Source: Alternaria dauci
Taxonomy: Eukaryota; Ascomycota; Dothideomycetes; Pleosporales; Pleosporaceae
Direction of reading: 5' to 3'
DNA: 64,000 nucleotides
Assembly (NCBI RefSeq): GCF_042100115.1
Contig: NC_091274.1
Coordinates: 1 to 64,000 of the forward strand
Shown here piece after piece: positions 230-28,980 of the stretch. A program made the translations under genes and the position numbers. Below the pieces are notes generated by a model that ran no database searches, had not been told where the DNA came from, and saw only the letters and a list, made by a program, of their open reading frames with translations. The number at the start of each line of letters is the position of its first letter. Position 1 is the first letter of the stretch.

Positions 230-375
230 ACCCTAACCCTAACCCTAACCCTAACCCTAACCCTAACCCTAACCCTAACCCTAACCCTAACCCTAACCCT
301 AACCCTAACCCTAACCCTAACCCTAACCCTAACCCTAACCCTAACCCTAACCCTAACCCTAACCCTAACCCTAAC
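230..375. repeat. buried (interstitial) telomere repeat block
   Basis: About 24 perfect CCCTAA copies lying inward of a block of subtelomeric repeat. Orientation matches the terminal telomere. The right junction (CCCTAAC to GGTTACAGC) is the same as the one at 128/129, while the left junction cuts the 18-bp repeat after CTTCTTAG. This looks like a telomere that was extended by copying a second telomere plus subtelomere end onto it. Confidence 0.95.
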
Positions 376-745
376 GGTTACAGCTTCTTAGTTATTTAGG
401 GCTTCTTAGTTACTTAAGGCTTCTTAGTTATTTAGGGCTTCTTAGTTATTTAGGGCTTCTTAGTTACTTAAGGCTTCTTAGTTACTTAGGGCTTCTTAGT
501 TACTTAGGGCTTCTTAGTTATTTAGGGCTTCTTAGTTATTTAGGGCTTCTTAGTTACTTAGGGCTTCTTAGTTATTTAGGGCTTCTTAGTTATTTAGGGC
601 TTCTTAGTTATTTAGGGCTTCTTAGTTACTTAGGGCTTCTTAGTTATTTAGGGCTTCTTAGTTATTTAGGGCTTCTTAGTTACTTAGGGCTTCTTAGTTA
701 CTTAGGGCTTCTTAGTTACTTAGGGCTTCTTAGTTACTTAAGGCT
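376..745. repeat. subtelomeric 18-bp tandem array
   Basis: About 20 tandem copies of an 18-bp unit, GGGCTTCTTAGTTATTTA, with variants (TACTTA for TATTTA, AGG for GGG). The array ends near 745, where AT-rich RIP-mutated sequence begins. No coding content. Confidence 0.93.
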
Positions 746-6700: not shown

Positions 6701-8180
6701 CGGGCGTGATGCCTGCGGACGGTTTGATCTCAAATCGCCAGGTGTCCGCTTGCTCCTGGTAGGGACTGAACTGGATGTCCACGAAGGCGCCCTCGCGGTA
6801 GCTGGCGCCCTCTGGTACCCTGAGCTCGGCGTAGTATAACCGGTCACCGCCGCCGCGAACCTTCATAATCTTGGTGTCGGTGATCTCGAAACCCTTCTGC
6901 TTGGCGGCCTTGCGCAGTTCGTGGACAAGGTTCTGGTAGTGCACGGTGACGTACTGTGTGTTGTTCTGGAATGCCCACTGGGGAGGGACCTTGAATCCTT
7001 TCGGCTGCTTGTCGACAGAGATCTCCATGCCAGTCTGAGGGTTGACACGACAGTCCTTCCAGTAGAGCAGAATCGGGTCGTTCTTGTATTGAGCTTGCAT
7101 CTCTTTGTACACGGTATCCATGCGCTCTTGTGCTGACTCTGTGGCGACCGTGAAGAAGTGCAGCACGGTGCCCTCGCCGCCATTCTCGAGGATATCGCGA
7201 GCACGATGGATGACTTCATCGAAGATCCCAAAGTTCTGGTGGGAGAAGAACCCCAATCCGTAGAGGGGGCGGGAGTTCAGAGGTTGTCCGTCAGGTTGTT
7301 CGGTTTGGAGGTCGAAGCGGAAGTGTAGGAGCATCCCTAGTTCGCTGAGTGCAAGCTTACTAGCAGCTCGCTTAACATCTTCTTGGGAAACCCTTGAGGT
7401 GAAGAACTCATCGGTGATCTTCATGGGAAGTACAGTGCAGTTGACGATGTTGTGGGCTGTCAGGGTAATGGAGGCTGCCCGATGAGCGTGGCCACGGAGG
7501 GTGATACTAGCGTCGTCGCTCGGATAGGAAATATCCATCTCTACACTAACGGAGGAGACATAGTGAGGGATCTTCCGAGTGAATAACTTTGTTGTGAAGC
7601 TAGGTTTATCCAGTGGTGGGGCCATGGTTTGGGCAGGAGGAAGCTCGTCTTTGCCATCCTTGGAGACGTCCTCCTTGGAGACGTCCTCCTTGGAGGCGTC
7701 CTCCTTAGGAGCACGAAACTTGCGGGTTTTGATCGGCTGGGGATAGAAGCAATCCGAGGCAACGTGGCCGAGACGGTTACAGCCGTTGCACCTAGGGCCC
7801 TGGTCTGCTGCTGGCTCACTAGGGCATTGCTTGGAGAGGTGCCCGTGACCACCGCAGTTGAAGCACTCGTTCGTGGGACAGTCGCGGTAGACATGGCCAA
7901 CCTCGCCGCAGTTGGAACACGCTTGCTGTTCGAGCTTCTTGGGGCAATCTTTGGCCCTGTGGCCTGGTTCTTTGCAGGTGAAGCAGGCGTGCTTCTCTCG
8001 GTCAGGGGCGTCGGGAAGGCCTCCGAGCTGGACAGAGTCTTTGCCGGGTGCCTCCAAGACAGCAATGCCCTGGTCGTAGACTTCTGTATCATGCGGCGCC
8101 GACGTCGGCCGGTCATTGACCATGTAGTGCATGACAGACTGGTCGGCCATGCTGGACGATATGCAAAAACAGAGTTTCAA
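3744..8180 (-). CDS. CCHC zinc-knuckle / UPF1-like SF1 helicase
   Basis: A single uninterrupted frame of 1478 aa. The N-terminus has four CCHC zinc knuckles (C66-C69-H74-C79, C88-C91-H96-C101, C106-C109-H114-C119, C131-C134-H139-C144), expected to bind single-stranded nucleic acid. An SF1 helicase core follows: Walker A GPGGVGKT near 641, a motif II-like GDIHQPK near 950 where DExx is degenerate, TPYVAQV, TVDKMQGAEKE and AVGRARSLLVIVGN near 1172. These last motifs are typical of the UPF1/DNA2 group. The acidic tail consists of 23-aa and 17-aa tandem repeats. A second ATG at codon 11 (MADQSV) could be the true start. It is transcribed divergently from the SNF2-like gene to the right and ends about 3.4 kb from the telomere repeats. 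Role is unknown; a telomere-associated helicase is inferred from position and domains. Confidence 0.88.
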   Translation of the reverse strand: MKLCFCISSSMADQSVMHYMVNDRPTSAPHDTEVYDQGIAVLEAPGKDSVQLGGLPDAPDREKHACFTCKEPGHRAKDCPKKLEQQACSNCGEVGHVYRDCPTNECFNCGGHGHLSKQCPSEPAADQGPRCNGCNRLGHVASDCFYPQPIKTRKFRAPKEDASKEDVSKEDVSKDGKDELPPAQTMAPPLDKPSFTTKLFTRKIPHYVSSVSVEMDISYPSDDASITLRGHAHRAASITLTAHNIVNCTVLPMKITDEFFTSRVSQEDVKRAASKLALSELGMLLHFRFDLQTEQPDGQPLNSRPLYGLGFFSHQNFGIFDEVIHRARDILENGGEGTVLHFFTVATESAQERMDTVYKEMQAQYKNDPILLYWKDCRVNPQTGMEISVDKQPKGFKVPPQWAFQNNTQYVTVHYQNLVHELRKAAKQKGFEITDTKIMKVRGGGDRLYYAELRVPEGASYREGAFVDIQFSPYQEQADTWRFEIKPSAGITPASYIGGFLYRPRLGASFAEQPLFKEGVHYSCAFNYRTLPEAEEALRKLRGIYVFARLNPATVGIKRQINALNHYFRGGDAFSDVTQILHNSYLRFPDDKIVDYFAGMFAYLGDNGAKDSIMERLNRSLQPDVLQKLRALAGGVALIQGPGGVGKTRIIEALAVAHYEAQQTGVIHGLGRLAAFWVTSPLNKQLDDAMLRIYTACLERRKELKAAGIQARFPIVIRRHMKETETAVVRKESEAARNVLLKNEKPPYFEYIEEEHFTKDQLKEQAAAYQEKSSEDRRTMAFLDALTVDSQFRILLETSETKSSFTDKRLQLEMLSEGAWVLRLAGVPERNADTNELVVHEIAQPKKYRDFRFQLDLYASGQEFDADDMRRLTALTNEIIRDLAQLAVAIGMTSDVISQPRTHTLEQPYAVHHDEAGKSSESSTLAPLVYTHAYNNEGPLMVERKAITPHLFFGDIHQPKPSAAGGSEERHVFSDQQDLPFFHRAMLGGCTTIYLHTQYRFNSDINALTNHILPRGRMEVAPGVDDREENIRAMEIAMEQFNISSGHRVIFVSVKGSHDIVGATKSRYNKDFIPYTLRAVCKMIAGGFSGKQVAIITPYVAQVAAIRFVLARFMEHLANQVDEEELFKLSVQLRDVEVFTVDKMQGAEKEGIVFDTTNAGDLGFVKHTTRMLLAVGRARSLLVIVGNPVSVLAEYTGATDKDKRYVKLAYYKVWKWCLDRKSAIQLHVDPELAQGWCEFNPPFNVAEHIEAFAAGSQATEEPIKMFPDANYGPLPTFSTASPVDGDGIDFYSGGDDWNRDDAKDKPNDDGVPFYSGGDDWNRDDAKDKPNDDGVPFYSGGDDWNRDDAKDKPNDDGIPFYSGGDDWNRDDAKDKPEGEDHADDGGDEAKDKPEGEDHADDGGDEAKDKPEGEDHADDGGDEAKDKPEGEDHADDGGDEAKDKPEGEDHADDDEDHAGNDEGHGGDQCSNVAHDWNQYD
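3826..4325 (-). repeat. in-frame 51-bp and 69-bp coding tandem repeats
   Basis: Two adjacent tandem arrays inside the C-terminal coding end of the zinc-knuckle helicase. About five 51-bp units encode a 17-aa acidic repeat (core GEDHADDGGDEAKDKPE), and about four 69-bp units encode a 23-aa repeat containing YSGGDDWNRDDAKDKP. Both periods are multiples of three, so copy-number change does not break the frame. Copies are nearly identical, which suggests recent expansion. Confidence 0.9.
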
Positions 8181-9260: not shown

Positions 9261-12200
9261 ATGGACGATAACACGCAGTCACCCGCCCATCCACCGGCAG
9301 GCGACCCCAGCTCCCTTAGCTACTCGGGGAACCAAACAGAGATCTTCCGCGGCTTCGGCATCGACGACGCCACCAGACAAAAGGAGATAGCCAGGACGAT
9401 TGACAAGATTCTTGTGGACAACTACCCCGATGCACGCAATCGAGGTGCAGCAAAGCTCAGCGACACTGCCAATGAAGACCTGAACAAGAACCTACACGCC
9501 CTGGTCTGGAAGTCCGTACCCGACTTCCGCAACGAACCCAAGGCGTGGAGGACAATGGCGATTAGCAAGTTGATCACACATTCTCTCAATCGCCTGAGGA
9601 AGCGTAAAGCGGAAGGCGACCATGCTAAAGCCCCAACCCCCAACCCCTTGACGGCAACCTCTACACTCCAAAAGCGCGAGTTATCGCCAGAATCAACGCA
9701 CAACTCCAAAGACCACCCACCTAAGCGCTCTCGATCCAGAACCGTTCCTACAGGATTCACGCCTACTCCGAACAACGACAAGCCTGCTAATCCTCCCATG
9801 CCAACCGCTTCAAATCTCGACACACAGGTACATATATGCGCCGTAAAGGATGGAGAGATCAGCGAAGTAGTCAGCATGGTCGAATTCAGTGACATATGTT
9901 GGGAGGGCATCCCCAACTGGGAAAAACTACGCGACGAAGCTGAGCAATGCTACGAAACTGCGCAAGGCCTAGGACTCGATGGATTCGACTTCAAGGGCCG
10001 CTTGTTTATCGCTCCAAGAGCAAATCAGCATATCGGAATTGGAAGCCAAGGTGGATTCAACTTTGCTATGCGAGAAATCCCAGCTGGCACAGCCGTAGTG
10101 TTTGTCACGACGGTTAGATTGAACGTAACCGACACGCAAGTTGCCTCCTCCAAAGTCGTCCCGCCAGCAGAGGTGCAAGATGGTCAGCAACAAGATGCCA
10201 CCCACATGCAAGTTGCCTCCTCCGAGCCCGCCCCGCCAGCAGAGGTGCAAGGTGACCAGCAACAAGATGCCACCCACATGCAAGTTGCCTCCTCCGAGCC
10301 CGCCCCGCCAGCAGAGGTGCAAGATGGTCAGCAACAAGATGCCACCCACATGCAAGTTGCCTCCTCCGAGCCCGCCCCGCCAGCAGAGGTGCAAGGTGAC
10401 CAGCAACAAGATGCCACCCACATGCAAGTTGCCTCCTCCGAGCCCGCCCCGCCAGCAGAGGTGCAAGATGGTCAGCAACAAGATGCCACCCACATGCAAG
10501 TTGCCTCCTCCGAGCCCGCCCCGCCAGCAGAGGTGCAAGGTGACCAGCAACAAGATGCCACCCACATGCAAGTTGCCTCCTCCGAAGCCGTCCCACCGGA
10601 AAGTAAGGAGCTTACACCCAAGACACTCAAGGAGATACTAGATTTGGCGGCCAACATACATCCATTATCCTGGTCGAGGGAAGAATCCACACCTAGCAAC
10701 AGCGCACACAAGCAGCATCCTGTAGGTCCGTTCTCGTCATACATGTCCAGGAATAACAGCATCGCCTTCCCCCGCACACTTCAACCCTCGTCGTTCACAC
10801 CCGTGAATCTGCTACCGCTCGCCAGACCTGCCAAACCACCGTCCAGCGCACCTAAGTCCTTTCTCAAGTTTGTCGAGACCTTCCCTTCTAATAGCTACCA
10901 CGGTAGCGGACTAGACGACCCAATACATATCAGCGACGATAGTGGTAGCAGCGATTCTAGTGACAGCGAGTCTAGTAACAACATGGACATTCTCGTAGAC
11001 GATGAAGAGGTGCTAGAAGAATGCATGTTAGACGAAGGCGAACCGGAACAACCCCCATTGAACGAACAAGCTAAGACCCAGGCAAACGCGCATTTCTCGA
11101 GCACTATGAAGGTGAAGATGGATGGTATGTCTGCTTTTGCGCACGCGCAAAAGTCGAACATAGACTTGTGGGACTTAGCCGCGCAAACCTTCGGCCTTGC
11201 GCTCGACGACCTCAAAGGCGACCAGATCAACCTCGGAACTGGGGTCGGCTTAAACCCAGATTTCCACCCGCTACCCCATCAGTTGGTCGGCGCCAAGGAT
11301 GGCTTGGATGTCCTCGCCGGCGACCGAGGAGCACTTGTCATCGCCGACGACATGGGCATGGGCAAGACGATCACCGATGTCCTCATATGGTATCTCAATT
11401 TTGCTAGATCGTACCAGCGCCTCGGCATCAGCGCGACGCCAGACTTCCCCTACACTGCTCTCAAATCGAACGGAGACGAGATAGAGACGCCGAATCTGTT
11501 TGGATGCACCTACTTTGTTGCGAGTGCAGCAGGCCTTGAAACATTGGTACAAGCATGGCGTATGATCATGGGTGGCAGCGCCCACTTGGCTCAAGGATCA
11601 GAGTACAAGCCACCGAAGCTGATAGTCTTGCACGGTACGGGCGAAGAGATTGTACAGCGTTATGGCGGTGCGAAGAACAGCATCTACTCTAGCATGACAC
11701 CAAAAGAGTGGGATGAAGTCAACCGTCGCCCTAACTGGTTGAAATCACGATTGGCCTATGGGGAGTACAACAAGGTGTGGAAGTTGAACAACCCGACTAA
11801 GGAATGGGCAAACAGCGTCCCTGAGACATCGGACTTCAGACCTCAAAAGACGAGCGTTAGGTTCTTGATAGTCTCAACTCGCGAGTCTTGGAAGACGAAG
11901 ATCTTTGGCACGCTTGTCGATACCTCTGCGCCCCCTCAGTACAAGAGGCTAAAACAACAGTTAGAAAAGACCGACAAGAGGCATACTAAGAAGAGGGCGG
12001 CGTTGAGAGCACAGCTGAGCCTGTGCGCCAAGACGCATATGGACACTTCACGATTGCCTGCGCTTGATGGTCTCGGCCCTTGGCAGGCTCGTCGCATGCA
12101 AATATGGACAGACGACAAAGGTGTGAGGGTCGAGGTGTGGTTGGTCACATTCGTTGGTTGCGCTGCAATAATCATGGTCGACGAGCTGCATACCGCCCCG

Positions 12201-13622
12201 GGTACAAAAACTCAAACCTACACCCACATCATCGACCCCATTTTGGACTACAGGCCCAATGATCATCGTACTGGTATAGTAGGTCAGACGGGCACAGCTC
12301 TCACGAACGGGGTCGACCTGGTGTTAGGATTCGCCGACCACGTGATCCAGCGGTTAGTACAAAAGCAGTCCACCGATCCAGGCGCCAAAGCTTTAGCCAA
12401 TTTGAAAGGGGTAGATTGTACTGCAGTGTGGAGAAAGCTCCTCAATAGCTACAAGAAGTATCACGACGGGATGCAGCGTTGTAAAACCGAGAAGGAAAAG
12501 AACAAAGTACAGTCCGCGCTCGACAAGCAACTCCAGTCCGGCGAGATCAAGGACATGCTGAACAATTTTCGGGACATGGTTCGGTGGTGTTTCATAATGC
12601 GCGACACCGACAGTCTGGATCCCTGGCGCAAACCCCTCAACGTTGTCACAGCAAAGCTTACTGTCAACTTCACGTATCTGCAGCACGATGCGTGTTACTT
12701 CGCTAACGTGGAACAAGAAGAGTCTCGCGTGCTAGCCGCGGTCAAACAGCATTACGAGAAGGAAGTGGAGGCCTGGGAAGACCAAGGGGGAGAGAGCAGC
12801 AAGAAGTCCAAGCCCACCATGCCCCCAGGCGCAGTCGCAGACTCCGAGGCCTACCGCATTGCGCGACATGTCAGCATCTTTCCTAACCTTATGGCCGCAA
12901 TCAACAATTGGGATGCCGACCAGCTTATCGGAGATCGGATCCTCGACCCTCACCGCAGTCTCAGTAATAACAACGAAAACCTCCGCACAGCTCTTGTGAA
13001 CAGCGACACAATTCGACACTCATTCATCTGGGACATTGCATTGGAGGCTTGCAAGGGCTCAGCCAAGGTCGCATACATTCACAAGACGTTGGAAGAGCTA
13101 CGCAACAAGAAGACGACCATTCCCCATCCCCGTCCTCGCGCACACCAAGGAGAAACCCTAGAGTACAGAGCCAAGTACGTCGTACTCGCGAGCTCGACAT
13201 TGTCACGTGCTCTGATCTACGCTTACATCTGCCAAACGTTTGGAGAGAAACACGTTGTTCATGCCTACAACGCCGTGACACGGGACAAGGAAGTACCCAA
13301 GTGGAAGAAGGTCTGGGATGAGGGGGGCGGCAAGGTCGACGATGGCGTCTATATTCTCGTGGGTGCAACGGGCGCGATGTGTCAGTCAATATCGCTTACA
13401 GAGGGCAACATCTTGCATGGTCTTGAGCCTCAGAGTAACGCGCATATTGCTGAACAGGCTGCGAAACGCCAACATCGCATTAATACGAGGTTCGCCGAAG
13501 TCTTCGTTGAATGGCTGACAACTACTGCCCCTCAAGGATGCCGAGACACCATTGACATGAGGATAGTCAAGAACCTCCAAGCTAAAGGCTATTTTCAGAG
13601 CACGATAAAGGCGCAAGACTGA
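9261..13622 (+). CDS. degenerate SNF2-like helicase, subtelomeric
   Basis: 1453 aa from the ATG at 9261; the frame is open further up to 8748, but the upstream part looks like untranslated leader. N-terminal ~600 residues are disordered, with a 24-aa tandem repeat and an acidic serine-rich stretch (SDDSGSSDSSDSESS). The SNF2-type core follows: motif I DDMGMGKT near 696, motif II VDELH near 973 in place of DEAH, motif III GQTGTALTNG, and in the second RecA lobe VLASSTLSRAL and EQAAKRQHRINT near 1399, which matches the SNF2 motif VI pattern of QAxxRxHRxxQ. Expected role is ATP-driven DNA translocation on chromatin in the nucleus. It stands head to head with the zinc-knuckle helicase, suggesting a shared promoter. 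Divergent motifs mean activity is not certain. Confidence 0.85.
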   Translation: MDDNTQSPAHPPAGDPSSLSYSGNQTEIFRGFGIDDATRQKEIARTIDKILVDNYPDARNRGAAKLSDTANEDLNKNLHALVWKSVPDFRNEPKAWRTMAISKLITHSLNRLRKRKAEGDHAKAPTPNPLTATSTLQKRELSPESTHNSKDHPPKRSRSRTVPTGFTPTPNNDKPANPPMPTASNLDTQVHICAVKDGEISEVVSMVEFSDICWEGIPNWEKLRDEAEQCYETAQGLGLDGFDFKGRLFIAPRANQHIGIGSQGGFNFAMREIPAGTAVVFVTTVRLNVTDTQVASSKVVPPAEVQDGQQQDATHMQVASSEPAPPAEVQGDQQQDATHMQVASSEPAPPAEVQDGQQQDATHMQVASSEPAPPAEVQGDQQQDATHMQVASSEPAPPAEVQDGQQQDATHMQVASSEPAPPAEVQGDQQQDATHMQVASSEAVPPESKELTPKTLKEILDLAANIHPLSWSREESTPSNSAHKQHPVGPFSSYMSRNNSIAFPRTLQPSSFTPVNLLPLARPAKPPSSAPKSFLKFVETFPSNSYHGSGLDDPIHISDDSGSSDSSDSESSNNMDILVDDEEVLEECMLDEGEPEQPPLNEQAKTQANAHFSSTMKVKMDGMSAFAHAQKSNIDLWDLAAQTFGLALDDLKGDQINLGTGVGLNPDFHPLPHQLVGAKDGLDVLAGDRGALVIADDMGMGKTITDVLIWYLNFARSYQRLGISATPDFPYTALKSNGDEIETPNLFGCTYFVASAAGLETLVQAWRMIMGGSAHLAQGSEYKPPKLIVLHGTGEEIVQRYGGAKNSIYSSMTPKEWDEVNRRPNWLKSRLAYGEYNKVWKLNNPTKEWANSVPETSDFRPQKTSVRFLIVSTRESWKTKIFGTLVDTSAPPQYKRLKQQLEKTDKRHTKKRAALRAQLSLCAKTHMDTSRLPALDGLGPWQARRMQIWTDDKGVRVEVWLVTFVGCAAIIMVDELHTAPGTKTQTYTHIIDPILDYRPNDHRTGIVGQTGTALTNGVDLVLGFADHVIQRLVQKQSTDPGAKALANLKGVDCTAVWRKLLNSYKKYHDGMQRCKTEKEKNKVQSALDKQLQSGEIKDMLNNFRDMVRWCFIMRDTDSLDPWRKPLNVVTAKLTVNFTYLQHDACYFANVEQEESRVLAAVKQHYEKEVEAWEDQGGESSKKSKPTMPPGAVADSEAYRIARHVSIFPNLMAAINNWDADQLIGDRILDPHRSLSNNNENLRTALVNSDTIRHSFIWDIALEACKGSAKVAYIHKTLEELRNKKTTIPHPRPRAHQGETLEYRAKYVVLASSTLSRALIYAYICQTFGEKHVVHAYNAVTRDKEVPKWKKVWDEGGGKVDDGVYILVGATGAMCQSISLTEGNILHGLEPQSNAHIAEQAAKRQHRINTRFAEVFVEWLTTTAPQGCRDTIDMRIVKNLQAKGYFQSTIKAQD
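10137..10589 (+). repeat. 72-bp coding tandem repeat with 144-bp higher order
   Basis: Six full 72-bp copies plus a partial seventh inside the SNF2-like gene. Each encodes 24 aa with the core QVASSEPAPPAEVQ followed by DG or GD, then QQQDATHM. The DG and GD versions alternate strictly, with AAGATGGTCAGC and AAGGTGACCAGC at the DNA level. The array therefore grew in 144-bp steps, a small higher-order repeat. Confidence 0.93.
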
Positions 13623-13937: not shown

Positions 13938-14145
13938 TCGCAACCGCTTCGCAATGTGCCCTCGCTAGCAACCAACCGTTGCGGCAACTTGCGTCCCAAG
14001 CCATATCGCAACCGCTTCGCAACGTGCCCTCGCTAGCAACCAACCGTTGCGGCAACTTGCGTCCCAAGCCATATCGCAACCGCTTCGCAACGTGCCCTCG
14101 CTAGCAACCAACCGTTGCGGCAACTTGCTTCCCAAGCCATATCGT
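13938..14145. repeat. 68-bp tandem repeat, three copies
   Basis: Three nearly identical 68-bp units begin at 13938, 14006 and 14074, with anchors CCCTCGCTAGCAACCAACCG and GCGGCAACTTGCGTCCCAAG. A fourth, diverged copy sits about 1 kb away at 15105-15172, so the repeats flank the small broken gene between them. The word TTGCGGCAAC also occurs in the 22-bp minisatellite near the telomere. Confidence 0.9.
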
Positions 14146-15616: not shown

Positions 15617-17479
15617 ATGGATCAGTTACAGCTCGATAGTGACCATTGTCAGGATAAACACAGCGGAAGAGGCTTTCCTGCACAGTGGGACGCTACAGTC
15701 GCTAACAACTTAGCATACAGCCCACCTAACCCGTCCTACAGCAGATTTCTTGCGCGTCGTCTCGCAGAACCATGCCGTGTACCAGGCGATGTACGATACG
15801 CGGGATGGATCGTTCCAGAAGTAGGCGACGACGAAGCGTGCAAGCCGGTTTTCATAGCCCACTCGACACTAGATGCGATATGGCTGCTGAAAGAGACGCT
15901 GGGTGCCAGCACACTTGACGCAGAAAATTGGGGGCGTCTCACAAGCGCTGCTATGGACTTTGCTAGTAGTAAGTCTCTAGAGCCTAGAAACTTAACTACA
16001 GCGCGGCTAATGACGCCAACGGAAGGCATCGCGGAGGACCGCATGGCTATAGACTCAGACAAGGACGATAGCATACCGCCATCAGCACAGAGGGCTACAG
16101 GCGACCTTGTGCCGTACCGTAAACGTCCAGCCTCCTCATCGCCTATTCGCAGCGAGATCCGTGCCAACAGCTTAAACCGCCTAGCAATACAGGAGGACAG
16201 CGCGGACGAATCGACGGCTAGGGCTAGCGAAGTCAACACTATGACAGTACACGCTGGCAAAGACACAGCTAGAGCGGAGGGGGGACACGAGCGCGGAACA
16301 AGCGACGAGGACAGCGAAAACCAGAGTGCGACGACGCCTCTATCCGTAAAGAGGTCCGCAACAGTTACAAACAAGAATCGTCTTGCAGAGCTACGGCGTA
16401 CAAGAAAGCTAGAAAGATCGCGTGTAATAAAGCTCGAGGCGATAGGCTTAAAGGAACCGCCTGAGAAGATGCCTGCGCAGGAACGTATGGCGTACGGCAG
16501 CATTGCGCCAGACGATGAGCCGACGATCTCTTGGATCTTCAAGCAAAAAGTCGCGGAAGATGCTGATTTCTATACAGCCTCGCCAACACCCTACTATACT
16601 GCCTGCAGCATGCTAGCAAAAGCGCGTGCTTTTGGAAATGCAACCTCGCAGTACAGCGCTGCGCAGTTCCTGCATAATTGGCGGAAACAGGGCACGCCGT
16701 TCTTGGTAAAACCAGTAGATCGTTATGTTCTTACCCAGACGCAAATGTCGCAGTCAGTGGATAGTAGCGCAACACTTCATACTGATGCCGACAATGCATT
16801 CTGCTTTGCCTGGGACATGTGCACACGGTACGAGACGATGCTTGCAGCTGTAAACATTGGCACTCGCTGGGCTTTCGCTTTGCTAGGGAAGGCGTACGCT
16901 CGCAAGGTCGACGAAATCCAGGTCGCTGATCGTCTAGCCAGTAACGACAGAACTCGCAACAGGTACGGGAAGGGCCAGGCACGAACAGAGGCTATCACAT
17001 ATTTGGTCCATCTGGTTTGCCAATCACCATCTAAATCTGACCACGCAGCCTTTCGTTACCGCCTAAAGCGAGCGACACGATGGTTCGACATAGTTCAAGC
17101 TCTAGGCTGGGGATCGCTGCTGCTCATACCCCACGAAGAGGTCTCAAACCATTGGCTCGAGCGTGTGCTGCGGAAGAACCAGCGCGATGTTTTTCTTGAG
17201 CTAGTGAAGCGCGAACGGCCGGAAATTTGCACGGCAAGCAGGGCCCTCGAAGCCTGGCTAGGGCCGGATGGAATTACTGGTGCGCCGATTGCTGGAAAGG
17301 AGAGGCTTAGCATTGAAGCGAATGCGCTAGCTACGGCGGTGGGGTTAACAGAGATTCCAGACAGCGAAGCCGAAGATGACACTGATTCTGACGCATCGGA
17401 AAGTATCCCGGCATCGCCGGCGCCATTGCGACAGATGTCGGTACTTGAATTATTCTGTCCTGTAAGCCCTATAGGTTGA
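15617..17479 (+). CDS. uncharacterised 620-aa protein (module protein A)
   Basis: One uninterrupted frame with a good start context (AAAATGG). I do not recognise the family. The N-terminal ~110 residues look folded (RFLARRLAEPCRVPGDVRYA). Residues ~130-270 are a charged, serine-rich disordered region with basic clusters (RRTRKLERSRVIKLE) that could be a nuclear signal. A long helical C-terminal domain of ~300 residues contains WIFKQKVAEDADFY, HNWRKQGTPFLVKPV and FRYRLKRATRWFDIVQALGW, and the tail is acidic (DSEAEDDTDSDASES). It converges on the 1172-aa gene on the other strand. With that gene and the ParB-like gene it forms a compact 9-kb group inside the un-RIPed island. No signal peptide or membrane segment. 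Confidence 0.75.
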   Translation: MDQLQLDSDHCQDKHSGRGFPAQWDATVANNLAYSPPNPSYSRFLARRLAEPCRVPGDVRYAGWIVPEVGDDEACKPVFIAHSTLDAIWLLKETLGASTLDAENWGRLTSAAMDFASSKSLEPRNLTTARLMTPTEGIAEDRMAIDSDKDDSIPPSAQRATGDLVPYRKRPASSSPIRSEIRANSLNRLAIQEDSADESTARASEVNTMTVHAGKDTARAEGGHERGTSDEDSENQSATTPLSVKRSATVTNKNRLAELRRTRKLERSRVIKLEAIGLKEPPEKMPAQERMAYGSIAPDDEPTISWIFKQKVAEDADFYTASPTPYYTACSMLAKARAFGNATSQYSAAQFLHNWRKQGTPFLVKPVDRYVLTQTQMSQSVDSSATLHTDADNAFCFAWDMCTRYETMLAAVNIGTRWAFALLGKAYARKVDEIQVADRLASNDRTRNRYGKGQARTEAITYLVHLVCQSPSKSDHAAFRYRLKRATRWFDIVQALGWGSLLLIPHEEVSNHWLERVLRKNQRDVFLELVKRERPEICTASRALEAWLGPDGITGAPIAGKERLSIEANALATAVGLTEIPDSEAEDDTDSDASESIPASPAPLRQMSVLELFCPVSPIG

Positions 17480-18512
17480 ACAATAAACCGGGTTACCTGA
17501 CGACCCTGAACTATGCGCTGCGGAAAAAGAGTGATGGGCTCGAAGAGCACAATGCTGAGCTTCTAGCGACACTCTACGGAAGTAGTGAGGTAGACGAGAG
17601 TTGCTAGTCATAGCGGTGCTTATTAGCAGGTGGGGTGTATGCGTCCGTGTTGCGGAAGCTTGCCAATTTAGTGTTAGGCTAGGTCTGTCGTCTAAGTCAC
17701 CGGCTGTACCGTGGCTCTCGACGATTACAGCCTGCTAGGAAGCTGCTGTCGTATTGCGATACAGATAAGTCAACAACACCGCAGGCTACAAATCTACAAA
17801 TAACTACAAAGAAGAGCGAAACACATAGCGGCTTCCTCTCTTTTCCTTAAAGGTTGCCGCGCAAGGTGCTATTACCTTTGCCTGCGGAGAATAGTAACAG
17901 GATGCCTCTACACTGTGCTACTTCAGCCACTAATGCAATGTAGACTTCGCAGGCTCTATTCTCTAGTGCCTGCGTCTTTTTACTATTACGTTAATTATGT
18001 AAATAGTAGAGAAGAGACACAGTTAAGATTAAGAAACGGATTACATGCGACAACGATAGTACGGTTAATATTGGGGTTGGTGTTTTTCTGAATTTACAGT
18101 TAATACGAAATATTTTAAAAAATCATAACACTACGTAACGTGTATTAATCTCTTCAAAAGCTGTATAGGATAGAAGATGTATATAGTATATACGTGTTTT
18201 ATAGGAGAGAAGATGTAAAATTATAGTGGAAGCTATAATAGCTTACTCTACACTGGGGACTCCTGTATAATAGTATGACATCGGTCAACCCATGCATAAT
18301 CAGAACTACCAAACACGCATTGAATAAAACCTTTAGCATCGCTCCGTAGTCGCATTAACTCTGTACGTCTCTTCTCAAGAACGGAATCATAGTTGATCGC
18401 TATGTCGCTGTTCCTTGGGGAGTCTCGACGCCCACTAGTAACCCGAATCCATTGCAGTTGTCGAAGGAAGCGGTTGTTGCAACCTTTGTGCTCTACCCCA
18501 GATAGTACTATG
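17480..18512. other. intergenic region between convergent genes
   Basis: About 1 kb between the 3' ends of module genes A and B. Composition becomes AT-rich between 17980 and 18260, but CA and TG dinucleotides are still present, so it is not heavily RIP-mutated. No gene, terminal repeat or RNA gene could be supported. Confidence 0.6.
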
Positions 18513-21500
18513 TTAGCAATGCTTCTTACTTGGGAAAAGGGCCTCTCTTAGGGAAGTCTTACCAATCTTCTTCGTCATCTCCCGTACCGAAAGCACCCAA
18601 CCATCGTCTTCCTCCGACGGGAAGTAATCTGGTCGAAGAGACCAGAGCATTCTTGTTACCAAGGCGGCCGCAAACATTTCAGAGTTCTTGGTTGGTCCTT
18701 TGGAAAACTCAGTCGCATTCACCGCTACAGTAGGGGTAGCTGAAGAGGATGCAAGGGTTAACACCAACATGAGCATTAGATCGCATTTTGGCTGACCTAA
18801 GCACTCGATGAGGCACTGACGTGCTCTGTGGTAGTGTTCACGAACCTTCTGATTCATGCCGGACTTTGAGAACTGGCCGTCCAACTGCTGAAAACCTTTT
18901 TCAACTAGCGGCGGGATGGCGTTAAAAGGGATTTGGCAACCAAAGTCGATAGTACTCTTTGTTTGCGAGCGCCGCTTTGCTTGGTGTACTGCCTCAATCG
19001 CTGCCCGCTTGAGGCTGCCCGGTCTCGCCGCTATAGCGGATGGGGCCGGAACGTTACCGACTAGCCGCGTCATTCTCCGGTAGCTCAATCGGCCATGGTA
19101 TGAACCAGGCACACAGTCAATGCGGCACGCCGCTAGAGCTGACATTATGGCGCTGATCCAGTATTCCTCCTTCATCGCCTTGGCCCTGGCGTGTTGCACG
19201 GCAGCGCGTAACACAGTGAACCAGCTCGCGTTCTTTGAAAAGAGGTAGCTACTAGATTGGCCATGGCTGTTAACACACTCCCAGTAGAGCTCTTGCGCAA
19301 AGTCGCGTCGCGTCTGGCTTCTCAAACCCGAAGTCGCTTCTGGATAAAAGACAGGAAAGATCGACTCGTACTCCCTGTACTGTGTTAGCGGCTGATATTT
19401 GAAACGCTAATTGCACGAACCCTGCAGAGAAGGGGTGCTCGCTTTCAGCCCAACGCGTCACCTGCTCTTGCGCCTCCTGTCGTGCCTGCAGTGTTGTTAG
19501 GCTTACGCTTTGAGCATTGCCCCGTCCGCCCTTGTTCAGAGCGCGATAGAATTGGTGTGTTACGAAAGCGATTGTCTGCGGCTTCCACATCTCTTCGAGC
19601 ACCTCTACTAGGAACTCTTCTGCGCCACGAGGCCCTTTACCTGTGAGCCCACCAAGCTCACGGAACCATACCTCGCTGTGACAATAAGCGGCAACCTGGG
19701 GCCCATAGTGGTGGCGAATGGAAGCAACGTGCATCATAATAGGTCGTCCATTGTCCATGCGCGGCCAACGCACTAGGTTAGCATGGCCACTGCCTTGCAG
19801 ATTGAGCATGTTGGGGTCGATAAACGGCCACCCACCCTGCTCAATGCTTTCTATGGTGCAGAGAGGCCCGAGCACTGAGCCCACTAAAGACCGGGGGAAC
19901 CCAGTAAAGCAGTAGCTGCCAAGGCGATCGAATGCGGCCACACCTTCCGCTAGGGCAAAAGGCAGCCCTTTAGAGCCAGCAGCCTTGAAGCGACGATAAA
20001 ACTCGTCTGATGCGTGCGCGAACAGACTAGCAAAGGAGGAGAGAACCTTTGGAAAGATGCGTTCTTTGAACGCGAAGAGGACATCAATGTAGGTAGGTTG
20101 TTCCAGCGAGAAGTACCGGATTAGCTGGAGGATAGGTTGAAGCACTGTCGCAAAATTCCGTTGACCGTCAGCTAACTGCGACACCTGCACAGACAGAACT
20201 TGCTCCATCCTAAACGCGTACAGTTCTTCCTTTATAGCGGCTTTAATCCGCTGTTGCTCGCGAGCGAACGGTTGGGAAGACGTAGGGTTATCAGGAGTCT
20301 GTTCGCCTCGCAATTTCCGCAGTAAACGCTGCCGCTTCGCCGCTACCCGAGGGTTTAGGTTGCCATCCTGATCTGGCAGCGTCAGGGCAGCCGTGGCAAT
20401 GCCCTTGGTAGCAAGTAAGTTGCCGGGGCTATGGCGTATAGTTCGCTTAATGTTGGAGTACGCCTGAAAATAACCACTAGTCAACACGCTCGCACCGTTG
20501 TTCTGATAGCTCATGTTGTCCTCTATTACAGCGAGCACGTTGTCGCGTAGGAATGCTGGGGGCTGCGCGGAGGAGAAGTTGCCGTACGATGGATGGAAGG
20601 CAAGAGGGTAGAAGGTAAAGTCGCGCGGGTGTTGGTATTGGCGAACAACGTTGTTGCGATTGGCAAGGAGGCAGCGCGCAGGTGCGAGAATGACACCGAC
20701 GTCATTAGAGGCGTTAGGGAGGTTGGAAGATGCTATTGAGTGGATGTCGACCGCTAGCGCGTAGGAGACCGTCTCAATGCTCTCCAGTCTATACTTGTCC
20801 TCTAGTGCGCGTAGAAGATCCTGTGTGTAGTTATCAAACGGCTGTTGATGGTCGTGCGGCGGGGGAATTGGATCGCCTGTTTGTGTACCGCTCTGTGGGG
20901 GCGTAGCCCCCTCTGCGCCGCCTTCGGACCTAGCCGCCGCGTCTTCAGAGTTAGATAAATCATTCTGAGAGTTTGGTAAATCATTCCCAGAGTTTGACAA
21001 ATCATTCCTAGAATCAGACGTCTCGCTATCAGAGTCAGACGTCTCGTCATCAGAGTCAGACGTCTCGTCATCAGAGTCAGACGTCTCGTCATCAGAGTCA
21101 GACGTCTCGTCATCAGGGCGCAACCGGGTTTCCTTAGGCAGACTATTGAGTTGCTCAGTAGACAACTCAATTGGAAGGTTCTGCCCGTAGTCATACGCAT
21201 GGAACGCTGGCAGGTTCTTAGTCCAGAACGGATCCTGCGTGTTCTTGCGCACGTACTCTGGCCACCCTTCCATGAACTGCTCCTGGAACGTTTCCCACTT
21301 GACGATTGAGATCGATTGCGACTGGGGTCCATCCAATTTCCAAGAAGCCTCAACACCCTCTCCAAGTAATACGCCTGTAAGGAAGACTTTCTTAATGTAC
21401 GACGTAAGGAACAGGGCATGGGAGGGTTTGAGAGCGCTGTGCTCAGACGCCTTCTCGCGGCGTTTGCGACGTTCGCTGCCTGACAGAAGAGGGTCTACTG

Positions 21501-22144
21501 TGCTATCGACAGGGTGCATAACAATAAACCAAGATTCGCGCGTTCCACCCTTTGCAAGACGGAAGGTACGATGCTCCATATCAAACGACAGTCCGTGGCT
21601 GTGTTTAGCGCTGTATGGAGCTCGCCAGTGTTTAAAGCTGATTGTTACGTGGTCGAAGAACGTAGAGAACTTCACAATGGGTTGGAGCGGCCGGCCGATG
21701 ATAATGATAAGGTCGAGGTGGAACTCAGGGATAAATTTGTCCTCAGGCTTGGCTGGTCGGGACCCAACGCGCCTCGATCCGTAGTCTATCGTGTATCGCT
21801 TCTGCAGCATTCCAATAGCCTTACTGCCGTTAAATTCGGGGCTGTCTATCATCTTGATAAATCCCTTCACTACTACGTAGTTACTATATGCGTACAAGTA
21901 GGATGCTCTTAAACTCACCAGGTAGTCGGTGGTCACCTCCGCTGTGGTCAATAGCCCAGGTAAGTTGATTATTCGCTATTGCGTCTTCGTCCCCAAGGCT
22001 GCTCTCGTGGTATTCTTCTCCATCATGCTCGTCAGGTTCTCTATCGTGCTCATCAGGTTGCACATCTTGGTACAGGCCGTCCTCCTCTCCAGCACTGCTG
22101 TTATCGTAATCGCTATCGTTTTGTTGTGCAAGATCTAAAGACAT
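18513..22144 (-). CDS. uncharacterised ~1172-aa protein (module protein B)
   Basis: Best model is join of 22144-21919, 21872-19381 and 19313-18513, which keeps frame throughout (1172 aa). The first intron (21873-21918, 46 bp) has a clear GTGAGT donor. The second (19314-19380, 67 bp, GTACAG...CAG) is inferred, because the frame changes there; a frameshift is the alternative. Features in order: acidic N-terminus (QNDSDYDNSSAGEEDG); a basic domain; repeated DETSDSD units encoded by a 21-bp tandem repeat at about 21015-21115; then a large conserved-looking region with FDRLGSYCFTGFPRSL, GGWPFIDPNMLNL, HYGPQVAAYCHSEVWFRELG and MWKPQTIAFVTHQF. From memory this resembles a multi-copy fungal family without known function, but I could not check it. 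It is co-directional with the ParB-like gene, about 160 bp away, and convergent with gene A. Confidence 0.72.
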
Positions 22145-22302
22145 GATGATAAGAACAGTATTATATAAAATAGTACGTTGGCTAAGGGCTGAGGATCTTG
22201 TAGGGTAGATCGATAGATGATGATCGAGAATCACAATATCCAGTGCAGAGGAAAGAGGAGAGGAACAGTGTCTATTGGGTTAGGGCTAGGGTCAGATACG
22301 GA

Positions 22303-24570
22303 TTACTTCCTCCAAGCCCCTCGTTGTTTCTGTCGAGTCTTTTCGCTTGGAGAAGCACTGCCCTCTACAGCTACCTGGTCGCCAAGGGTGTGTTTCTTAC
22401 GGTGTTTCTTTCGGGTCTTTTCGCTTAGAGAAGCACTGCCCTTTACAGCTACCTGGTCGCTAAGGGTGCGTTTCTGACGGTGTTTCTCTCGGGCTGCAGC
22501 AAGGTCGCTTAGACTCAAGTCCTCAATCCCCCTGTTTTGAACTTTGGTCTGCTGGGATGCCTTGGGTATGCGCGGCTCAGTTGAGGGGTGAGAAATTAGC
22601 TCTGGGGTAAGCTGGTCCGAACTCGACCGTGCTGAAACGCTACGTGCCGCTTCAGAGACTGTCAGATTGAGCTCTCTCTCTCTGCTAGACTCGGCGTTAG
22701 AGTGCCTTGCGGGCAGCGGAACCTCTTGACTTGTATTATCAGAGTCTTCTAGAGTGTGTCTAGACATCCATTCAGTGATTGCGACCTGAATTGTCTCTAG
22801 CAAGTCGTTTGCTGCCCTAGTAGACTGGAGCGCAGGTTCGTTGACGACTTCAGGGACCTGACAGATAGCATCACACGCGATTTGTGCGATTGTAGGCGTT
22901 CGCGCTATGTAGGTATCGCTTTGAATTAGGCACGCCAAGTGCTTGTTGTGCAAGGTTGGCCCTGTGAAACTGGTCACAATTGACAGCAGTTCTCTCCACA
23001 CCTTATGCTGGAAGCGTGCGCCGTAGTTCTTGATCTCTGCACTTGGGTACTCGTCAATATAGCGGTCTAGTATAGAGCTTGTGAATGCTTCCGCATTTTG
23101 CTGTACGTGTTGCAGTACTTCTTGTTGGAGGTCAAGAGATTTTTGATCAGCCTGGCCGGCATGCCTGCTCTGCAGCACGGGCACTAGATACTTCCGCAGT
23201 GCGGGTTTGTTGTTGTCGCTGTCAGACACCTTGGCGGATCCGCTGTTTACCCATTGGCTGACGTGGGTCATAATACTCCTCATAAGCTTCCCCTCTTTCT
23301 TCGGGGTTTTTAAGAGAGCGAGGATGTTTGTGTACGTGTGTGTGGGCTTTGAAAGTACAGTGGAGTATAGCGCATGGTAGGCCTCATTGCTTAGAGTTGG
23401 GAAGAAGCCCTGCCGGCGCGTATGGGAAGGGCCAGGATCCTTGTCTAACTCCTCGCCAGGGTAGAACAGGTCTTGTACGTCATGGGGACTTCGTGCCTGG
23501 GGCAGGCTAGCTAGCGTGTTCCAGTCTGCTAAACTGGCGTCAACCCCATACTGCTTTCGAATAGATGTAGAGATGCGAAGTACGTTCTCAAACGCAGCGA
23601 ACCAATGCTAGACAGTAGATTAGCAAGACAGGTCAGAGTATTTCGGCGGCGGGTTACACATACGTCATCTATCCGACAACTAGCCATCCACTCAAAAGTG
23701 GAGAGATTAAACGTTGCCTGCCCAATTGCGGTAGAACACCAACGCGTAAGCAGGGGCTGCCAGTTTTGATTTCTCCACAGGGTAACTAGCCGCCGTATTG
23801 GGAACTTGACGCGGCTACTAAGCTGAAGATGCTCTCTCATCTCTTTCTCAACTGACTTGCTTGAGCCTTGAAAGAGATTGGCGTTTGTGCAGAACAGGCT
23901 GGTTAACTCGGACCATATCTGGCCATGATTGTCAGGGAGCGTAATATCGGCCCGATTCGCCCGAAGTTTAACACGAGTGTCTGGTGGTAGCGTGTCTAAA
24001 AAGGTTAGGGGCTGTTGTTCACAGTACGCGCGTTAAGGGGCACCCGCCTTTATCGTAGATGCGGCACACCCACCACCTCTCCTCTTCTCCTAACTGCCGA
24101 AGGCGAAGATACTCTTTGAATGCCTCTACACGATGGTGACCCGTAATAAGTTCCGCTGTCCCTCCAGTCACGCTTTTCCAGCTCTTGAACGACGGCCATT
24201 CCAATCCTTCCTTATCCGCAAACGTGGCAGAAGTAACTGTGCTCTGAGCTGGCAATTCCACCTTCAGATGATGAAGCATCTGCTCTACGTGTTCCTTAGA
24301 ACAGGCAATCTGCAGTTGGTGGCTAGGGTCTCGTCGAAGAATACCAGTTTCGTTAAAGATCTCGCAGAGGCGGCGCTGGTGTGCTGTGTCAATAGACCTA
24401 TTGACACCAAAACTCCATTCTGCGCTAAGCGCATCGATTGGAAACTTCGCTATAGCGAGTAGGTATGGCGCAGCTTGTTCGTGGATAGGAGTTGTCTCTT
24501 CAATCTCTGGATCATTCGTACGCTGCCGTTTGCTGTTTTTGGTTAAAACGTTTGCTAGAGGGCGCTTCAT
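22303..24570 (-). CDS. ParB/sulfiredoxin-like domain protein (module protein C)
   Basis: Model: join of 24570-24048, 23995-23664 and 23607-22303, 719 aa, frame kept across both introns. The intron at 23608-23663 is canonical (GTATGT...TCTAG). The one at 23996-24047 needs a GC donor, with CTAAC branch site and TTTTTAG acceptor; it joins RIYDK directly to DTLPP. N-terminal ~170 residues carry a ParB-like fold: FPIDAL, then the ParB box II-like ELITGHHRVEAFKEYL near residue 140, followed by VKLRANRADITLPDNHGQIW. In bacteria ParB-type domains bind CTP or nucleotides and act on DNA; here that is inference. The C-terminus has two copies of a lysine-rich ~27-aa repeat (KHRQKRTLSDQVAVKGSAS), a likely nuclear signal. 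It lies upstream of and co-directional with gene B. Confidence 0.75.
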
Positions 24571-24775
24571 TGCAACGTTGTTAGAAAGAACACAGAAACT
24601 AAGGTAAGTGGAAAAGAGATAAGAGAAGGTAAGAAAGCAATAGAGAGGTACTACACAAGGTATAAGTAGGCGAGAAGCCGTCTATTCTTGCATAGGCCGC
24701 TGTAAGTCTAGCGGTGAGTGTTAGTCACTCTCGCCCCCAAGGGCAGCACCTTACGGCAATCCGCGGCTACTATCT

Positions 24776-25450
24776 CGCCCCTGGGGGCAGCACTCTACGC
24801 CTACTATCTCGCCCCCGGGGGCAGCACTCTACGGCTACTATCTCGCCCCCGGGGGCAGCACTCTACGGCTACTATCTCGCCCCTGGGGGCAGCACTCTAC
24901 GGCTACTATCTCGCCCCCAGGGGCAGCACTCTACGGCTACTATCTCGCCCCCAGGGGCAGCACTCTACGGCTACTATCTCGCCCCTGGGGGCAGCACTCT
25001 ACGGCTACTATCTCGCCCCTAGGGGCAGCACTCTACGGCTACTATCTCGCCCCCAGGGGCAGCACTCTACGGCTACTATCTCGCCCCTGGGGGCAGCACT
25101 CTACGGCTACTATCTCGCCCCTAGGGGTAGCACTCTACGGCTACTATCTCGCCCCCAGGGGCAGCACTCTACGGCTACTATCTCGCCCCCGGGGGTAGCA
25201 CTCTACAGCTACTATCTCGCCCCTAGGGGCAGCACTCTACGGCTACTATCTCGCCCCCAGGGGCAGCACTCTACGGCTACTATCTTGCCCCTAGGGGCAG
25301 CACTCTACGCCTACTATCTCGCCCCCAGGGGTAGCAACTTACAGTAACTTGCAGCAACCCGCGCCTACTATCTCGCCCCTAGGGGCAGCACTCTACGCCT
25401 ACTATCTCGCCCCTAAGGGTAGTACTCTATAGATACTATCTTACCCCTAG
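24776..25450. repeat. 34-bp minisatellite, outer part RIP-mutated
   Basis: About 20 tandem copies of a 34-bp unit with anchors CTCGCCCC, GGGGGCAGCACTCTACGG and CTACTAT. Because 34 is not a multiple of three, all frames through it run as long repeats; these are not genes. From about 25400 rightwards units read TTACCCCTAGGGGTAGACC and then dissolve into AT-rich DNA. Near 25335-25360 a stretch with GTAACTTGCAGCAACCCGC interrupts the array and resembles the 22-bp minisatellite near the telomere. Confidence 0.93.
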
Positions 25451-28400
25451 GGGTAGACCTCTATAGCTACTCTCTTACCTCTAACCCTATGCTAGTTATA
25501 CTGTTTACCTCTATAGTATTAGGTCTTAAATAAGCTCGCGAAATAGGACTATAATAATAGTAACCCTAGGATTTAATTAGTAGGTAGGTGCTATAAAAAG
25601 AAGACTCTTTCTACTACCTATTAGGAGAATAATAACTAGTAGTATTTCCCCTAAAAGAATTACGCGTAAAGTAATCTCTTATTTAGGTAATTTAAAAGTA
25701 ATTAGACCTTCTCTTTTTAATACCTTCTAAACTAGTACTTTTAGATTAGAGTTACTAATAGTTATAGATAGTAGCCTAGTATATATTAGCTAAATTATAG
25801 TAGAAGTAGCGCTATTTTTAGGGTGCTAGCCTAGCGTAATTATTCTAGGTAAATTTTATTACGTCTTAGTTAAATTTATTATGCTTCTACTAACACTTTT
25901 AGGTGTAAGCGCTAGAGGTAAGGCGCTTAATAGCTAGAGAAAGTAGTGCTACTTACTACTTAAATACTAGAATATTTAAAGTAACTAGTAGCTAAGGTAA
26001 GATATAATACCTATTTTAACCTTATAGTATAAAGTACTAGTAAGTTTAGTTTAGCCTACTTAAAGGTTAAGGCTACTTTCTAGCTATATTTTAGGCTCCT
26101 CCTACTCTCCCTTAGTTAAGGCCTCTTATATACCTTTACTAAATTCCTTACTAATAACTTCCTACCTAATAGTAATAGCTATATAGTAATACTCTAGTAT
26201 AGTAAGCTAGTAGCCTAGCTAGAGGCTTATTTCGCGTATAATAATCTTACTAAGTTAACTAGTCTCTTAGGGGCTAGTAGTATTAGCCTAAAGGTAATTA
26301 GTATAACTAATCCTTAGTTACTTACTTTTTAGGTACTTAGTAAGTAGCTATATATATATAAGAAATATTATAAATAACTAACTAACTCTCTAGGGTAGAA
26401 AACGTAGTATTACCTTAGGTGTATCCTATAGCGCCTAGCTTTTATAATACTAGTTTATAAAAACTACTTAGCCGTCTATTATATAAATATTCTAGTCTTA
26501 TATATAGCTATTCTAGTAGTAAGTAGAGGTAATTTTAGTTCCTTAGGTAGGCTACCCTCCTATAATATAAGTTAAAAAGAGGAGGTATTTAAGGAACTTT
26601 TCTACCTAATAAAGATAGTAGTGTACTAATTAAGGCTACTAGGCTAAGTTCTAGGGGTTACGTAGCCTATATCCCTAAGGACTATCTATTATCTTTTAAA
26701 TAGTCTATTTAAGACTACCTACTAACTTATTATCTAGGTAAGAAAGAAAGGAGTAGCTATATTAGTTAAAGGTAACGTTATCTTAGATTTTCCTAAGTAG
26801 TATCTAAAAGCAGTCTACCTTAGCTAATATCTATAGTAAGTCGCGCTATAGGTAGTCTTCTACCTACTATAGTATACTAGTAACTATAGCCTAGATATCT
26901 TTTAAATAAATTAGCTAACCTCTTATATAGAGAGTCCCTTAGTCTTTTAACTATAGCGAGATTAGAGCGTTAGTAGAATTTATAGTAATATACTTTAAGT
27001 AAGCTAAGAGGCTTATTATCTTACTAAAAGGGCTATATAAGCTATTAACTAAGTATTATTTTCTTTTCTTAATAAAGTTTTCCCTCTCTAGCTTACCCTA
27101 CTACTAGGCTAGGCGCTAAGTAGCTAGGAGTAGAATTTTAACAGCTAGTATATAGGTGTAGTATATAACTCCTACTAGTATATAGGAGAAATTATAGGCC
27201 TCTTATAAGTAGTTTATAGTATTATTAATACCTAATACTACTAGAAAGTAGATTAATCTACTTTAAAATAGGTTATCCCCTACTATTTAGAAGATAAAGG
27301 ATTTAAATAGCTATAGTAAGTTTATAATTTATTAGCTAATAGAGTTTAGGTATAGTATGTGCTAAAAAAGTATAGTAAGGTCTTTCTAGTTACTAGACTA
27401 TAGAAATAGCTACTTTACGTTATATATTTTATCCTTATAATAATAGGAGGAGCTAAGCTAACCCTTAATATCTAAGTTTAGCTCTTCTAAGCTTAACTAG
27501 CTAGATAAAGTATTACTCTTACTATCCTTATACTATATCTCTTAGGTAGAGTAAACCTATAGGATATAGTAGATAAAGCGCTTTATATAGCTAGCGTACT
27601 ACTTCTAACTTTTAGGATTCTAGAGGCGCGCTATTAGGCGGGTATTAGCCTCTTTAGCTTTAGCGCTTCTTAGCTAGCGCTAGCTCTTAAGTCTAAGGGT
27701 AGATAGACTAGTAACTACCTACTTAATAGCCTTATTAATAACGTCTACTACGCCCTAAAGTAGCGTATTATTCTTCTTAGGTATATAGCTTACTTAGCTT
27801 AGGTAGGTAAGATTATAGTAGGTAAGATAAATTACCTACTTATTTTACTTAAACTAGCTAGTATAGTTAGTCTTTACTACTATAGCGTTAGCGATTATAA
27901 GTAACTAGGTATAGACTACTTATAAATCTTAAATTTCTTTTATTATATATAATGCGTCGCTAGTAGTTAAAATTAGTACTAATATACTACTAGGTAGAGG
28001 CTGTACTTAAAAGTAGCGCTAGAAACTAGCTAAAGAGAAGAATATCTAGGCTTAAATATAAGCCTATAGCTAGTAATCCTCTTTACTTAAATTCTAGGAG
28101 TACTTCTTATTATAGTATCTTTAAATCTTATAGTAGCTTATTATAATAAATAAGTAGCTAGTATTATTATACTAGTAGAGAAATACTAGGATAAGAGCGC
28201 CTAACACTAAGATAGGTAGCTAGTTTAAGGGAGGAGAAGTAATATCCCTTAGGTTAGTAAGTAGGAGGCTACTAATCTAATATAATTTATCTAAGGCCTA
28301 CCTCTCTCCTTTCTAAGTAGAGTAGTAATCTCTTAAGTAAGTTATCTAGTTTCGCACTACGCTATAGTCTTTATAGATAATAACTTAGTATTCTAGTAGG

Positions 28401-28980
28401 TAGTATAGATAGTCCCTAAGAAGCTAAATTTTAAGAGTAGAGCCCTACTATAGAGGTAAGGCTACTATAGCTAGCTAAAATTCTAGGTAGTAGGCTAAGA
28501 TTCTAGGTAGTAGGCTAAAATCCTAGGTAGTAGGCTAAAATTCTAGGTAGTAGGCTAAGATTCTAGGTAGTAGGCTAAAATTCTAGGTAGTAGGCTAAGA
28601 TTCTAGGTAGTAGGCTAAAATCCTAGGTAGCTAGCTAAAATCCTAGGTAGCTAGCTAAAATCCTAGGTAGTAGGCTAAAATTCTAGGTAGTAGGCTAAAA
28701 TTCTAGGTAGCTAGCTAAAATCCTAGGTAGTAGGCTAAAATTCTAGGGGGTAGACTAAAATTCTAGGGCTATAGTAGCTTTAAATCCTAGGGTAGCTTAC
28801 AGCACTAGCTAGAATTACGTAAGGAATACTAAAACTTTACTAAAAACTATTTTTATAGATAACTTTATGACTAAACTCGCAACTATAAAACTAAGCGCAG
28901 ATTTAGAATCGCGCTATAAATCTATATAAAACTGTCTCTTTATATTCTTTTTTTTACCTCTATAAAGTTAACCCTAAGTA
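25451..28980. other. RIP-degraded AT-rich block
   Basis: No gene. CA and TG dinucleotides are almost absent, with the few remaining TG mostly in GTG. C in CC, CT and CG contexts survives, so TCGCG and GGCGCG words remain. This selective loss fits CpA-directed RIP of a once GC-rich repeat. Open frames are absent because CAG, CAA and CGA have become stops. The original element cannot be identified by eye. Confidence 0.82.
28476..28765. repeat. 20-bp tandem repeat, RIP-mutated
   Basis: About 14 copies of a 20-bp unit, CTAGGTAGTAGGCTAAGATT, with variants AAAATC/AAAATT and TAGCTAGC. All units lack CA and TG, so the array expanded before, or was evenly affected by, RIP. Confidence 0.88.

Follow-up and report, generated by a model that had tools for sequence, protein, structure and literature searches.

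A 25.1-kb unit of five genes lies directly inward of the telomere repeats at the left end of contig C3 of Alternaria dauci. It probably represents a mobile element that caps chromosome ends: its fixed inner end would be joined to chromosomal DNA at the trinucleotide TAT under the direction of the element, followed by recombination between the copies. The window analyzed here comprises the first 64,000 nucleotides of this contig (NC_091274.1, forward strand, assembly GCF_042100115.1) and opens with CCCTAA repeats; the unit occupies positions 376-25519. A sequence-only reading of the window had singled out positions 15617-24570 as a compact module of three large genes that could be a mobile or selfish element. 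The three long genes and their open frames, in a block of normal G+C content near the telomere, were confirmed (44-56% G+C per kb, compared to 19-31% in nearby AT-rich stretches). The module itself turned out to be the inner half of the larger unit, which starts at the telomere, carries two more large genes (A and B) outward of position 15617 and includes terminal repeats. All genomic data refer to a single A. dauci assembly of ten contigs (34.9 Mb), denoted by C and a number.

A search of the genome with ORF1, the open reading frame (ORF) at position 15617, gave 36 matches, 34 of which are full-length and all open, while two are cut off by contig ends. A DNA search with the exons of ORF2 also returned 36 copies, with identities of 99-100%, plus an additional match of 93 bp. 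Both counts are lower bounds. With at least 36 near-identical copies, the three-gene block is therefore not due to chance. Copies are present at 19 of the 20 ends of the chromosome contigs (all ten left ends and nine right ends). The sole end without the unit, the right end of C7, terminates in small-subunit ribosomal DNA, and the right ends of C2, C5, and C6 break off inside a copy. The orientation toward the chromosome end is identical in all copies. Head-to-tail arrays occur, the largest being six copies in tandem at the left end of C4, and four copies each are found at the right ends of C1 and C3. This distribution and the precise inner border that the copies form with many unrelated flanks strongly support the earlier proposal of a mobile or selfish subtelomeric element.

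The inner end was located and read for each of the 36 copies. It falls on the same base, ...CCTCTATAGTAT, in 41 of 41 junctions, which represent these copies and five older remnants; one of 42 matches to the inner-end pattern was spurious and excluded. Seventeen copies adjoin DNA that is not part of a unit, in one case (C5 right) a decayed older element. The remaining 19 adjoin another copy that is truncated, either in the 18-bp repeats (nine), at position 1112 (five), or at positions 818, 866, 1282, 25284, and 25406. No telomere tract of two or more repeats was found within the 40 bases beyond any of the 41 inner ends. Unoccupied targets were read from uninterrupted relatives of the flanks, which were sought in DNA already read; relatives above 99.9% identity (mostly the flank itself) were excluded. 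TAT directly precedes the join in seven of nine such non-unit targets, the exceptions being AAT (C2 left) and TAA (C7 left, read from a relative of 78% identity). Among the seven distinct targets within the unit, six show TAT and position 866 shows AAT. In total, 13 of the 16 readable targets carry TAT just before the join; leaving aside the 18-bp-repeat site, at which units with TTAT and TTAC are indistinguishable, the count is 12 of 15. The background frequency of TAT amounts to 0.053 for the flanks, while the AT-rich outer part of the unit has 0.081, and the binomial values for the excess are 3e-11 or less if independent sites are assumed. A 20-bp tandem array in the window (28452-28767) is the uninterrupted relative of an old-insertion target at the right end of C3.

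On the outer side, the junction between the telomere repeats and GGTTACAG is constant in all ten tracts that were read, which lie on nine contig ends, with an extra C in one case; this count omits six further telomere ends, and the left end of C9 has no tract. Terminal copies for which a telomere tract was read are all complete outward, and buried copies are often cut back, as expected from repeated erosion and re-capping. At the very end of the window (1-375), five and a half 18-bp repeats lie between two telomere tracts, as if this end had been re-capped once.

The following course of events would account for the observed number of copies, their position and orientation, the exact inner end found next to many flanks, and the constant telomere junction. 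A chromosome end that is broken or without a telomere would receive, at a TAT, the fixed inner end of the element. The DNA beyond the join would be replaced, and the body of the element, encoding two helicase-like proteins, ORF1, ORF2, and ORF3, would form the new end together with its telomere repeats. Later erosion would trim the outer side of the old copy, and a new copy would be added outside of it, leading to head-to-tail stacks in which the inner ends are exact and the older outer ends truncated. Homologous exchange would then amplify and homogenize the copies. We infer that the proteins of the element itself perform the joining, with ORF2 and ORF3 as candidates, possibly acting at the 34-bp repeat array. 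The element is presumably DNA-based, and the template for a new copy would be a donor end, as it is in break-induced replication, and not a free linear molecule.

A comparison of seven copies (that of the window and the six of C4) clearly points to exchange between copies, on top of joining. Outside of one 236-bp stretch, only four of the 21,281 letters compared vary between them. This stretch contains 40 of the 44 variable sites and coincides with a 249-bp dispersed repeat, which may resemble miniature inverted-repeat transposable elements and is also found at eight or more interior places. Its variants match an interior relative (window 43430-43671) in patches. Moreover, the junction at position 1112 is common to five copies on two chromosomes. 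The near-identity, the tandem copies with common junctions, and the patchy exchange would also suit a Y'-like subtelomeric repeat without joining machinery of its own, spread solely by host homologous recombination and break-induced replication. Recombinational exchange, as deduced from the sequences, is indeed a Y' trait, but a helicase of the RecQ or Y' type was not found: no RecQ model is listed for gene A or gene B. Furthermore, homologous recombination does not generate one and the same border next to 17 to 22 different flanks, or a common TAT, and the joins within the C4 array lack a telomere tract, unlike Y' junctions. We therefore regard such a repeat as unlikely, even though it is the strongest of the alternatives.

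Several points weigh against element-directed joining at TAT. The evidence comes from one genome. Uninterrupted relatives were found for nine of the 22 non-unit junctions and for none of the other 13. Three of the 16 targets are not TAT (AAT, AAT, and TAA), and since the unit itself shows TAT at the join, target choice is inseparable from a three-base homology. The near-identity of the copies and the junction shared by five of them fit ordinary recombination following the first attachments. Stops are present in gene A in five and in gene B in six of the 32 scored copies. Models of transposases, recombinases, reverse transcriptases (RTs), and Rep proteins did not match any of the unit proteins, so that we can only infer the catalytic step. 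Finally, the end structure is partly assembly-dependent, since DNA of other kinds lies outside the expected telomere at the right ends of C3 and C4 and the left ends of C7 and C9.

Alternatively, the unit could be a telomere-targeted retroelement, either terminon-like or MoTeR/FoTeR-like, whose RT is too diverged or borrowed. The UAU at the 3' end of its RNA would pair with ATA at the 3' end of the chromosome and prime copying. The precise chromosome-side end, the truncated telomere-side ends, and the head-to-tail stacks correspond to the pattern of target-primed copying, and the latter two are terminon (Penelope-like) traits. In addition, the weak Foldseek rows of the ORF2 model include Prp8, which contains an RT-like domain. 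However, these rows are at chance level (E 2.9 to 7.3), and an ORF2 aspartate that might mimic motif A is not conserved. None of the 112 RVT_1 matches in the genome lies inside a unit array (the 19 nearest were rechecked), although a very diverged RT could escape this search. Gene B and ORF1 are encoded on one strand, gene A, ORF2, and ORF3 on the other, and both this arrangement and the introns in ORF2 and ORF3 are ill-suited to a single 25-kb genomic RNA. At the inner end, we found CTATAGTAT rather than the telomere repeat of a Penelope-like pairing stretch, and the unit has neither the RT-coding ORF nor the insertion within telomere repeats that characterize MoTeR and FoTeR elements. A retroelement is therefore improbable. 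Even less credible is a linear plasmid or mini-chromosome-like DNA that has telomeres and integrates at chromosome ends: the unit does possess telomere repeats and helicase-like genes, but all copies were found within the ten chromosome-sized contigs (a free form might be missing from the assembly), and its main frames did not match any DNA polymerase model.

Other classes were also considered. A Starship was rejected, since the unit contains no DUF3435 captain and the DUF3723 match of ORF3 is below the threshold; genome-wide, the captain model (PF11917) matched one decayed locus (C5:127859-129179), outside all units. Likewise, the only genome-wide match to Helitron_like_N (C4:158979-159260) lies outside the array, and the unit ends with CTATAG-TAT instead of CTRR, the 3' end rule of Helitrons. 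DUF3505 is absent from the Pfam rows of the unit proteins, and up to six copies are present per end, rather than the combination of helicase and DUF3505 in one copy per end described for Colletotrichum higginsianum. Taken together, the unit lacks the defining features of Starships, Helitrons, and telomeric retroelements, and there is a fair chance that this telomere-associated mobile element forms its own class. It is conceivable, though we would not call it probable, that this is a new class of mobile elements that end chromosomes: they would attach at TAT, discard the distal DNA, and supply the telomere by means of a putative ORF2-ORF3 enzyme, i.e., a DNA-based, site-specific healing.

The genes of the unit are real, with frames that are open in most copies (Table 1). 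Gene A contains no stop in 27 of 32 scored copies; it matches AAA_12 (3.6e-27), zf-CCHC (1.6e-18), and AAA_11 (4.1e-6) in Pfam and UPF1 in the PDB (6.2e-10). Gene B, without a stop in 26 of 32, matches the profile of phrog_62 DNA helicase (9.6e-8) and shows the motifs ADDMGMGKT and DELH, picked out by eye; searches of Pfam, NCBIfam, and the PDB gave no match. ORF1 is the uninterrupted frame of 620 amino acids (aa) that had been reported. It carries the family label PF28402 in the protein search and has 46 homologues there, the named ones of which belong to the Pleosporales. The ∼1172-aa protein had to be revised to the 1243 aa of ORF2, since a last exon had been missed; this exon and some intron borders were derived from the alignment with homologues, to which ORF2 aligns over nearly its full length. 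There are 122 homologues at E<=0.001 (120 listed), and those with names span several ascomycete classes. The profile and structure searches proposed earlier did not assign a fold to either protein: the ORF2 family yielded a confident model (of a homologue) and ORF1 a weaker one, both without a match to known folds.

For ORF3, the length of 719 aa and the motif GHHRVEAF in the spliced product were correct. The likeness of this motif to ParB is less certain: the N-terminus matched only DUF3723, below the cut-off (E=0.021), no ParB model was listed, and the ORF3 part of protein P0006 had no match in the PDB. This weakly suggests a distant DUF3723/ParB-like N-terminus, and we found no support for the suggested segregation system. 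As for the check proposed earlier, whether the genes co-occur elsewhere, gene models from four other fungi keep ORF3 and ORF2 adjacent and in order. The ORF3-like part precedes the ORF2 part, as in the window, in four of 166 retrieved proteins, with identities of 42% over 716 columns (Zopfia), 35% over 487 (Fusarium oxysporum f. sp. rapae), 37% over 387 (Microthyrium), and 38% over 97 (Coniochaeta). All ten tandem-repeat rows within coding exons show periods divisible by three (15, 21, 51, 69, 72, and 78). Non-coding periods include 16, 22, 32, 34, 44, and 68, but also 6, 18, 24, 66, and 102.

Table 1. Features of the unit and of the chromosome end outside of it (window positions)
Feature	Positions	Strand	Description
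Terminal telomere tract	1-128		(CCCTAA)n
Partial outer repeats and inner telomere tract	129-375		repeats 129-229; second telomere tract 230-375
Outer end of unit	376-755		GGTTACAG, then 18-bp repeats (GCTTCTTAGTTAYTTAGG)
AT-rich stretch	756-2181		nested 249-bp dispersed repeat (1068-1316), hypervariable between copies
Minisatellite	2182-3188		22-bp
Gene A	3744-8150	-	1468 aa; zinc knuckles, UPF1-like superfamily 1 helicase, repetitive acidic tail
Gene B	9261-13622	+	1453 aa; divergent SNF2-like ATPase, 24-aa in-frame repeats
68-bp repeats	13938-14144
ORF1	15617-17479	+	620 aa; single uninterrupted frame, helical model
ORF2	18248-22144	-	1243 aa; four exons: 22144-21919, 21869-19421, 19374-18563, 18492-18248
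ORF3	22303-24570	-	719 aa; exons 24570-24048, 23995-23664, 23607-22303; first intron GC-AG
34-bp repeat array	24764-25483		G+C-rich palindromic core; adjoins the inner end
Exact inner end	25484-25519		...GTTTACCTCTATAGTAT; final TAT common to unit and target

Further inward, the window contains relic stretches (33000-37000 and 43000-51000) that are strongly AT-rich (19-25% G+C) and lie between islands of normal G+C content. Some contig ends show peculiar structures. At the right end of C4, the contig continues for ∼20 kb beyond the telomere tract of the copy, and the DNA past this tract (C4:3421200-3422400) recurs in identical form in the interior of C6 (C6:1308347-1309197), indicating a chimera or a telomere fusion. 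At the right end of C3, ∼120 kb follow the telomere tract, with AT-rich, perhaps mitochondrial DNA at the join (C3:3324300-3325800). We took the extra DNA after both arrays for assembly chimeras. The left end of C9 shows inverted 34-bp repeats in place of a telomere (C9:1-700), and at the left end of C7, 177 bp of other DNA lie ahead of the telomere tract (C7:1-450); both are perhaps assembly artefacts.

To our knowledge, the elements that reside at telomeres and possess a defined joining end are reverse-transcribing ones. A 25-kb element that caps nearly every end, with a three-letter joining site and no recognizable mobility enzyme, would point to a DNA-joining activity not known so far and would imply that broken chromosomes can be healed in yet another way. 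If a novel class is involved, it would be unlike the retro-telomeric elements, with ORF2/ORF3 genes spread through the Pezizomycotina. Since relatives of ORF2 occur in many ascomycetes, this question could be addressed in tractable species.

In C. higginsianum, the helicase-bearing repeats DHX_G198, DHX-chim_G203, and DTX-chim_G199 (11.3-18.5 kb) are found at all 24 subtelomeres, in one orientation between the telomere and unique DNA, like the unit described here (PMC5576322). They occur as a single full-length copy per end and encode a helicase and DUF3505 (PMC5576322), while the A. dauci unit forms tandem stacks, carries five genes with helicases of other kinds, and has a TAT joining site that could be mapped. 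Terminons are giant Penelope-like elements of rotifers, up to 40 kb long and with extra ORFs, and share outer truncation and head-to-tail telomeric arrays with the unit (PMC6431247). In contrast, they encode an RT and pair with telomere repeats, whereas the unit has no match to an RT model and its flanks are not telomere tracts. The MoTeR and FoTeR non-long-terminal-repeat retrotransposons likewise occupy many ends, with truncated copies and arrays, but they code for an RT (FoTeR, 4.3-7.3 kb) and are inserted in telomere repeats (PMC7367193, PMC12857005). Starships are also fungal and multigenic, and DUF3723 genes have been reported with them. Y' elements and telomere-linked RecQ helicases are subtelomeric, helicase-coding, and variable in copy number like the unit, which differs from them by its UPF1-like and SNF2-like proteins and its exact non-homologous inner joins. 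Among the published systems that we found, the helicase elements of C. higginsianum are the closest kin of the A. dauci unit, and the rotifer terminons are closest in architecture.

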